From NCBI GenBank assembly GCA_022711595.1, contig JAKLET010000002.1:1-64000 (forward strand): 64,000 nt of DNA, given 5' to 3'. Source of the stretch: Deltaproteobacteria bacterium. GTDB lineage: Bacteria; Desulfobacterota; Syntrophorhabdia; Syntrophorhabdales; Syntrophorhabdaceae. A model generated the notes under the pieces. The model saw only the letters and a list, made by a program, of their open reading frames with translations, did not search any database and had not been told where the DNA came from. Made by a program: the position numbers and the translations under genes. Below, in pieces: positions 20,046-63,090 of this stretch (positions are counted from its first letter, which is position 1; each line of letters opens with the position of its first letter).

Positions 20046-20215
20046 GAACAACCTCCTTGTAAGGCGTGATGTATCTTTTTCATTATATCGGGGGGAAGGG
20101 AAAATTGGAATAAACAGTTCCTGATCGCAGCAAACCAAAGAGGCTGTAAAACGATGCGGCAGTTCCGGGCCTGGTGCTATTAATCCAATCATATCATGAT
20201 GTTGTAGTTTCCAAC

Positions 20216-20243
20216 TTGACAAAATATGAATAATGCATAATCT
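20216..20243 (+). promoter_or_regulatory. Promoter of the HesB-like selenoprotein gene
   Basis: TTGACA (20216-20221), 16 bp, TAATCT (20238-20243). The leader of about 48 nt holds a small GGCGC/GCGCC hairpin and ends with AAGGAG before the ATG. Confidence 0.55.
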
Positions 20244-20297
20244 TAATGGACACGGCGCTAATCATAGGCGCCACGAATTATCGAGAAAGGAGAACTT

Positions 20298-20639
20298 ATG
20301 TTCCAAGTGACGGAAAAGGCAGGAGAAGTGATAAAGAAGCTGATCGAGGGTAAAGATCCTCAAACGGTCAGGATAATGATGACCGAAGGCGGCTGATCGG
20401 GGCCCTCATTGGGCATGGCCCTGGATGGGCCGCTGGACAGCGATGAGATCTTTACCGAACAGGGAGTCAAGTTCGTCATTGATAAAGGGTTGTTCGAGGA
20501 AGCGAAACCGATCAATATCGATTTTATCGAATCTGCCATGGGAGCTGGTTTCATGCTCAAGTCGGCTTTAACCGCAAAGCAGGGCGATAGCTGCTGCGCA
20601 ACAAGTGCCGGCGGCTGCGGCAGCGGCTGCAGCAGCTGA
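20298..20639 (+). CDS. HesB-like selenoprotein with Sec encoded by UGA
   Basis: Reading from the ATG at 20298 (Shine-Dalgarno AAGGAG) gives 32 codons, then an in-frame TGA at 20394-20396, then 80 more codons to the stop at 20637-20639. If the TGA is selenocysteine the product is 113 residues. The two halves join into one HesB/IscA-like domain: VRIMMTEGGUSGPSLGMALD around the U at position 33, where A-type iron-sulfur carriers have their first conserved Cys. The C-terminus is Cys-rich (DSCCATSAGGCGSGC). A hairpin suited to bacterial Sec insertion lies right after the TGA. Sec-containing HesB-like proteins are known in delta-proteobacteria. A gene caller will usually report only the fragment from 20409. 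Its role is presumed to be redox or cluster/metal handling. Confidence 0.85.
20399..20432 (+). promoter_or_regulatory. SECIS-like hairpin after the in-frame UGA
   Basis: GGCCC (20417-20421) and GGGCC (20427-20431) pair perfectly, extended by a T-G wobble, around the loop TGGAT. The loop begins 26 nt after the UGA and contains GG, as expected of a bacterial SECIS (stem-loop some 16-37 nt downstream with G in the apical loop). An alternative fold pairs 20399-20404 with 20417-20422. Confidence 0.6.
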
Positions 20640-20653
20640 TATTTTCTCATGTT

Positions 20654-20693
20654 AAGCAAACGGGCCGCGAAACACGCGGCCCGTTTGCTTTTT
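20654..20693 (+). terminator. Rho-independent terminator
   Basis: A perfect 16-bp stem (20654-20669 with 20675-20690), a 5-nt AAACA loop and a T-run. It ends the selenoprotein transcript and, read backwards, could also serve the convergent gene at 20720. Confidence 0.9.
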
Positions 20694-21098: not shown

Positions 21099-22082
21099 TC
21101 ACACATGGTTCCTCAGCATCAGTTCAACGGGGTGGGGGTTGAGATAGTGCTGTCTTTTCAGGTATGTCTTGTCGTATTTGAGCGCATAGTGGTTGAGGAG
21201 CGTAACGGGAACCACGAGGGGTATGAGACCGCGGTGGTATCGGTCGATTATATCGAGGAGCTCGCGTTTTTCCTCCCCGCTCAACTCTTTTTTAAAGTAT
21301 CCCATGATGTGATGAAGGACGTTGGTGTTCTTACGTGATGTGGCGATGAGGCGCAGGCCCTCCATCATGGTTTCGATATAAAGGCTGCCTGGGTGAGCCG
21401 GAGTATTTTTCGAACCCGCCGCAAGCCTGCCGAGGGTAGTAAGGTGCCTGGGACTATGGGCCATGACAAGGAGCTTGTGGTCGCTGTGGAACCCGACAAG
21501 GCCTCCCGCAGTGCCGTCCTTTTCCAAATAATCCTGCCATCTTTTCAACACAAAAACGCGCTCGATGAAGTTTTCCCTTAAGCCCGGGTCGTGAAGACGG
21601 CCCTCATCCTCGACGGGCATGAGGGGAAACCTCTTCATGAAGGCGTTCGCGAAGATGCCCACACCGCGGTGGACGGGCGGCGAACTGCCCATGTAGACCT
21701 TGACGCCGCGCATGCCGGAACTGGGCGATTTGCTTTTGAATATATAGCCGGAGAGTCCCCTGCGGGAGAGCTCATCAAGCTTTTTCCCGGCCCACTTTTT
21801 CATCCCTTCAGTGTGGTCTATGCAGGTGCGGACAGTTACCAGCCGCGGGTCATCGACGTTATCGGCGAGGTGCATGGCCTCCCGAGGGACAGGAAGGCCG
21901 TATTCGACCTCGGGGCAGACGGGAACGTAATCGAAGAACTGCCCGAGAGTGTCCGTTATATAGCGGTCGTGCTTGTGCCCGCCATCGTAGCGTACCTTCT
22001 CGCCGAGGAGGCACGCGCTTATGCCCACAGTTATTTTATCCAGAATATCCTCCTTCTTAACGGGCGCCGGCACCCCGGTCAT
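21099..22082 (-). CDS. DUF523-DUF1722 protein (TudS-like plus YbgA-like)
   Basis: A 327-residue two-domain protein. Residues about 15-165 are DUF523, the family that includes the iron-sulfur thiouracil desulfurase TudS; GISACLLGEKVRYDGGHK and PVCPEVEYGLPVPREAM give two of its cluster cysteines. The third, normally in SPSCG, is Ser here (KSKSPSSGMRGV). Residues about 190-320 are DUF1722, the YbgA family, recognisable from GLVGFHSDHKLLVMAHSP and NTNVLHHIMGYFKKELS. A nearby extra Cys (VRTCIDHTEG) might compensate. The ATG at 22082 has a weak ribosome-binding site; a GTG 18 codons later is an alternative start. Biological role uncertain. Confidence 0.85.
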   Translation of the reverse strand: MTGVPAPVKKEDILDKITVGISACLLGEKVRYDGGHKHDRYITDTLGQFFDYVPVCPEVEYGLPVPREAMHLADNVDDPRLVTVRTCIDHTEGMKKWAGKKLDELSRRGLSGYIFKSKSPSSGMRGVKVYMGSSPPVHRGVGIFANAFMKRFPLMPVEDEGRLHDPGLRENFIERVFVLKRWQDYLEKDGTAGGLVGFHSDHKLLVMAHSPRHLTTLGRLAAGSKNTPAHPGSLYIETMMEGLRLIATSRKNTNVLHHIMGYFKKELSGEEKRELLDIIDRYHRGLIPLVVPVTLLNHYALKYDKTYLKRQHYLNPHPVELMLRNHV

Positions 22083-62978: not shown

Positions 62979-63050
62979 GAATATATAAATTGACTATATA
63001 ACTCGGGTTCAGAGATAGAAGTTGTCTCTGGAGGGTTATGCGGGATGGTC

Positions 63051-63090
63051 GGGCCGCCATCCGGGAAACCGGATGGCGGCCCTTTATTAT
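63051..63090 (+). terminator. Terminator-like hairpin inside the leader
   Basis: A perfect 14-bp stem (63051-63064 with 63069-63082) with a GAAA tetraloop followed by TTTATTAT. It lies between the promoter and the pentapeptide gene, so it would attenuate that message. A 65-codon frame starting at 63038, with GGAGGG before it, runs through the hairpin and into the gene in another frame. Confidence 0.6.

Follow-up and report, generated by a model that had tools for sequence, protein, structure and literature searches.

A predicted HesB/IscA-like selenoprotein gene with a conserved in-frame UGA in a Syntrophorhabdaceae genome

Relationship to described HesB-like selenoproteins

HesB-like selenoproteins were catalogued by 2006 in Deltaproteobacteria, Clostridia and Symbiobacterium (PMC1794560), and were recorded in Syntrophobacter, Syntrophus, Desulfovibrio and Geobacter (PMC1794560; PMC13188914). 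Their UxGP motif was listed in a 2026 review (PMC13188914). The gene described here lies on the forward strand of a 64,000-nucleotide stretch from a Syntrophorhabdaceae genome (contig JAKLET010000002.1, positions 1 to 64,000; hereafter the window) and is a new, well-supported member of this already described kind.

The full coding sequence spans positions 20298-20639 (+) and translates as MFQVTEKAGEVIKKLIEGKDPQTVRIMMTEGG-U-SGPSLGMALDGP...GGCGSGCSS. It comprises 113 amino acids, including a putative selenocysteine (Sec) 33 encoded by an in-frame UGA (20394-20396, +) at the site of the first conserved Cys in IscA-type proteins, and terminates with TGA at 20637-20639. Frame, internal TGA and stop codon had all been proposed by an initial, sequence-only reading and were confirmed here. 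The only output of a mechanical ORF caller at this place was a TTG-started frame of 76 amino acids (20409-20639, +), without the N-terminus and Sec33; a plain ORF caller would therefore drop the first third of a HesB/IscA-like selenoprotein, and with it the active residue. That standard annotation would start at 20409, as previously claimed, holds for the mechanical caller, but since this family is already part of the NCBI model library, the complete gene would in principle be within reach of a pipeline using NF038090. A second Sec at the terminal UGA (20637-20639) was considered and rejected, the frames of relatives ending there with either TAA or TGA. Past this stop codon, the sole conserved feature in relatives was the terminator hairpin.

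At the protein level, the closest described family was NF038090 (IscA_HesB_Se). The read-through protein matched this model over residues 1-100 with 99.5 bits (cut-off 85), whereas the 20409 fragment scored 54.9 bits, below the same cut-off. The sequences on either side of the UGA, which the sequence-only reading had taken as halves of one domain, thus passed NF038090 only when read through, and no separation of the two halves was seen among homologues. Similarity to NF038090 further includes the UxGP motif and Sec at the first Cys, and nothing essential distinguishes the two, except that the present protein displays a C-terminal Cys-rich tail beyond the model which varies between genera. Members of TIGR01911 (HesB_rel_seleno) and published HesB-like selenoproteins (PMC1794560; PMC13188914) share the fold, the Sec position and the UxGP motif. 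Yet, the present protein remained under the TIGR01911 cut-off (37.2 bits against 66.35), and this model, 92 positions in length, does not extend as far as the Cys-rich tail.

Canonical A-type carriers (IscA, SufA and ErpA) have the fold and the GG(C/U)SG site in common with the present protein. It differs from them by Sec in place of the first Cys, by the lack of a clear CxC and by scores under the cut-offs of these families; the read-through protein did not exceed those of TIGR00049, TIGR02011 or ErpA, and its Pfam score was likewise below the Pfam cut-off. In phmmer alignments with solved structures, U33 coincided with the Cys of GGCSG in AQ_1857 (1nwb, E 4e-11) and HI1723 (2apn), and with that of SGCSG in E. 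coli IscA, which is the match to a conserved Cys expected for a Sec residue at this site. The Cys-rich tail (SCC...GGCGSGC) stands where IscA has its CxC. An AlphaFold model was of low confidence (mean pLDDT 54) and was taken as fold support only; its best structural matches were IscA, SufA, HI1723 and AQ_1857. From these comparisons, the protein is predicted to have the HesB/IscA fold, with Sec replacing the first cluster-ligand Cys.

Selenocysteine machinery and conservation of the UGA

The genome harbouring the window (3.55 Mb, 100% complete by tool estimate) encodes SelA (573 bits), SelB (381 bits, cut-off 242) and SelD (374 bits), together with a tRNA-Sec of anticodon UCA scoring above the gathering threshold. 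All of selA, selB, selC and selD were thus found, and Sec machinery is not absent from this bacterium. Its SelD appears to be a selenoprotein too, with an in-frame UGA near the N-terminus (G000:C23:186546-187457, locus L010).

Homologues were searched with read-through in 60 genomes, own genome included, and were recovered from 48 of them. A UGA copy occurred in 10 of the 11 congeners and in most genomes of the same family; the single exception within the genus is a genome that is 66% complete. TGA was present at the identical column in 64 distinct aligned sequences from many genera, with conservation of both flanks. Most of the "extra" TGA, TAA or TAG codons in the matches of relatives were stops at the end of the frame that the search had run past, and one TAG was located inside the frame of a relative (L049).

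Eleven paralogues or homologues displayed Trp, Tyr or Cys at the Sec column. Uninterrupted paralogues from relatives (L071, L076-L082, L084 and L085) formed a well-supported clade with Trp (TGG) or Tyr at this position. Members of this clade showed no SECIS stem, many carried a GCRNICDTC-type tail, and some passed or nearly passed the NF038090 cut-off; none was found in the genome of the window. To judge from their sequences, they look like Sec-less derivatives whose role has changed. A distant member of the phylum (L088, 590 and 1020) displayed tandem HesB-like genes, with Sec in one and Cys in the other at the same site.

Only one base separates TGA from TGC or TGT and Cys occupies this site in one phylum member (L088), so that a broken HesB gene, with its Cys codon mutated or misread as TGA in a pseudogene or through a sequencing error, has to be weighed. 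This explanation is scarcely conceivable in view of the same TGA in 64 distinct sequences from many genera, the conservation of both halves and the covariation of the downstream hairpin (see below); on such comparative grounds, we regard it as refuted by conservation.

The SECIS hairpin

Published rules for bacterial SECIS elements (bSECIS) call for an apical loop of 3-9 nt on a stem of 4-16 bp, with G among the first two loop nucleotides, the loop lying 16-37 nt from the UGA and the minimum free energy (MFE) not exceeding -7.5 (PMC13188914). The hairpin UGGCCC-UGGAU-GGGCCG (20416-20432, +) agrees with them: its 5-nt loop (UGGAU) has GG at positions 2-3 and tops a stem of 5 bp with an additional U-G pair, the apical loop is 25 nt from the UGA and the energy is -11.2 kcal/mol. 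The sequence-only reading had mentioned a SECIS-like hairpin with GG in its loop; a valid one does occur, although, as no coordinates were given, it may or may not be the one that was meant.

Hairpin and UGA were conserved together. All 5 bp of the stem, along with the GG loop, were kept in 60 of the 64 UGA copies against none of the 11 homologues with Trp, Tyr or Cys, and nearly all UGA copies keeping the stem displayed a UGGAU or UGGAC loop. When synonymous codons were redrawn according to codon usage in the remainder of the same genes (2000 trials), the stem arose on average in 1.0 of the 64 sequences and in no trial in more than 5. The sequences are kin, and their counts do not equal independent events. 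Base pairing was further sustained by compensatory change: pair 24/32 (window positions 20420/20428) was U-A in 49 sequences and C-G in 13. The former comes with Ala GCU and Glu GAG (or relatives with A in second place) and the latter with Ala GCC and Gly GGG. Through this pair, a silent change of the Ala codon is linked to a Glu/Gly exchange, so that the RNA element shapes the protein sequence. The switch was seen in the genus of the window and in two genomes of another genus whose third member keeps U-A, and therefore probably arose at least twice.

Folding energy gave a different picture. For the region as a whole, the lowest energy belonged to another fold that competes with the hairpin, and in the isolated RNA (42-53 nt) this competing fold was more stable than the SECIS hairpin. 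Once the 11 nt immediately 3' of the UGA were removed, as if covered by the ribosome, the predicted fold included the hairpin and the competing fold was lost. A SECIS search by energy alone picks the other structure and was discarded, the covarying hairpin being preferred; it is conservation among the aligned copies, not energy, that singles out 20416-20432 as the predicted SECIS. In an Rfam search, the gene region matched nothing but STnc70, below threshold and on account of the terminator hairpin.

These data also bear on whether the UGA is a true stop, with a short N-terminal peptide followed by a second protein reinitiated at TTG 20409. The 76-amino-acid ORF reported by the mechanical caller would fit such an arrangement. 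Yet, the two halves form one domain, the UGA column is fixed, Sec machinery is present and the adjacent downstream hairpin is kept only where the UGA is kept, which makes this arrangement very improbable. Our results argue instead, with near certainty, for a real HesB/IscA-related selenoprotein gene whose UGA would be read through by the standard bacterial Sec machinery. Translation would start at 20298, the hairpin 20416-20432 would recruit SelB with Sec-tRNA so that selenocysteine is inserted at the UGA (20394), and translation would then run on to the UGA at 20637. Comparative analysis establishes a single gene, its Sec codon, a SECIS, the machinery and a domain fold; the actual incorporation of Sec into the protein is what we infer.

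Expression signals, neighbourhood and possible function

A ribosome-binding site (AAAGGAG, 20286-20292, +) was read directly from the sequence upstream of the ATG start codon and was invariant in the 11 congeneric copies, in line with the good site noticed at first reading. The promoter announced by the same reading was sustained in part. A perfect TTGACA -35 box (20216-20221) was found inside a block of about 40 bases strongly conserved in the 11 congeners (CTTGACAAAA...TTAATGGACACGG, 20215-20254, +), a probable promoter/operator, but no acceptable -10 was seen at normal spacing from it and a pattern scan reported no sigma-70 site on the + strand. Given this lack of an evident -10, the block may correspond to another promoter type or also act as an operator. 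It may likewise be the site of a regulator. The expected terminator after the true stop was retrieved as an intrinsic one (20654-20693, +, -31.4 kcal/mol), with a perfect 16-bp stem (20654-20669/20675-20690), an AAACA loop and a T-rich end. It was absent from the pattern-scan list, and a GC-rich hairpin occupied its site in all 11 congeners.

Both neighbouring genes are on the opposite strand, no operon with isc or suf genes was observed around the gene, and synteny was retained in most of the genus. The orientation of the neighbours and this synteny point to a probably monocistronic gene. At 21099-22082 (-), a two-domain protein (2-thiouracil desulfurase and DUF1722) is encoded. Within the genus, and likewise in several further genera, such a protein is encoded close to the selenoprotein gene, and a functional link is possible. 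Elsewhere in the window, an nhaA-I RNA motif (Rfam RF03057, 53 bits, gathering 37) was located at 63005-63062 (+).

A TIGR00049 search of the genome returned the selenoprotein gene as its only match, and no second protein with a HesB/IscA domain was detected there. PF01521 gave no HesB/IscA-domain match there, a result that is not decisive alone since this model also misses the selenoprotein gene itself, and it exceeded its cut-off in none of the 40 genomes of the neighbourhood. NifU_N/IscU-type scaffolds are present in the genome. With such scaffolds and no other HesB/IscA-domain protein detected, the leading guess is an A-type-like carrier that would bind and pass on Fe or an Fe-S cluster, its selenolate acting as ligand and/or redox-active group. 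We consider this the most likely function, at roughly even odds on the sequence data. Against it speak the variable Cys-rich tail in place of the canonical CxC pair of IscA, the Pfam score below its cut-off and the lack of an operon with isc or suf genes.

The same tail and missing CxC would suit a selenoprotein with a redox or metal/metalloid-binding role instead of Fe-S carriage, a tentative reading nearly as likely as the carrier. Counted in its favour was the view that uncharacterised selenoproteins are mostly redox proteins (PMC13188914). So was a distant HesB-like selenoprotein of M. maripaludis, identified by mutagenesis and 75Se labelling, whose mutant still fixed nitrogen and whose function is unclear (PMC11097638). 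On the other hand, the protein resembles A-type carriers in its fold and has Sec where they have a cluster ligand, and no other such protein was detected in the genome.

A stronger form of the carrier proposal, in which the lineage has no canonical IscA, SufA or ErpA and the selenocysteine-containing A-type-like protein is its only carrier, appears unlikely. If true, Fe-S cluster delivery in these bacteria would depend on selenium. Since searches of this genome detected no second HesB/IscA-domain protein, the function of the long-uncharacterised HesB-like selenoprotein family becomes testable here.
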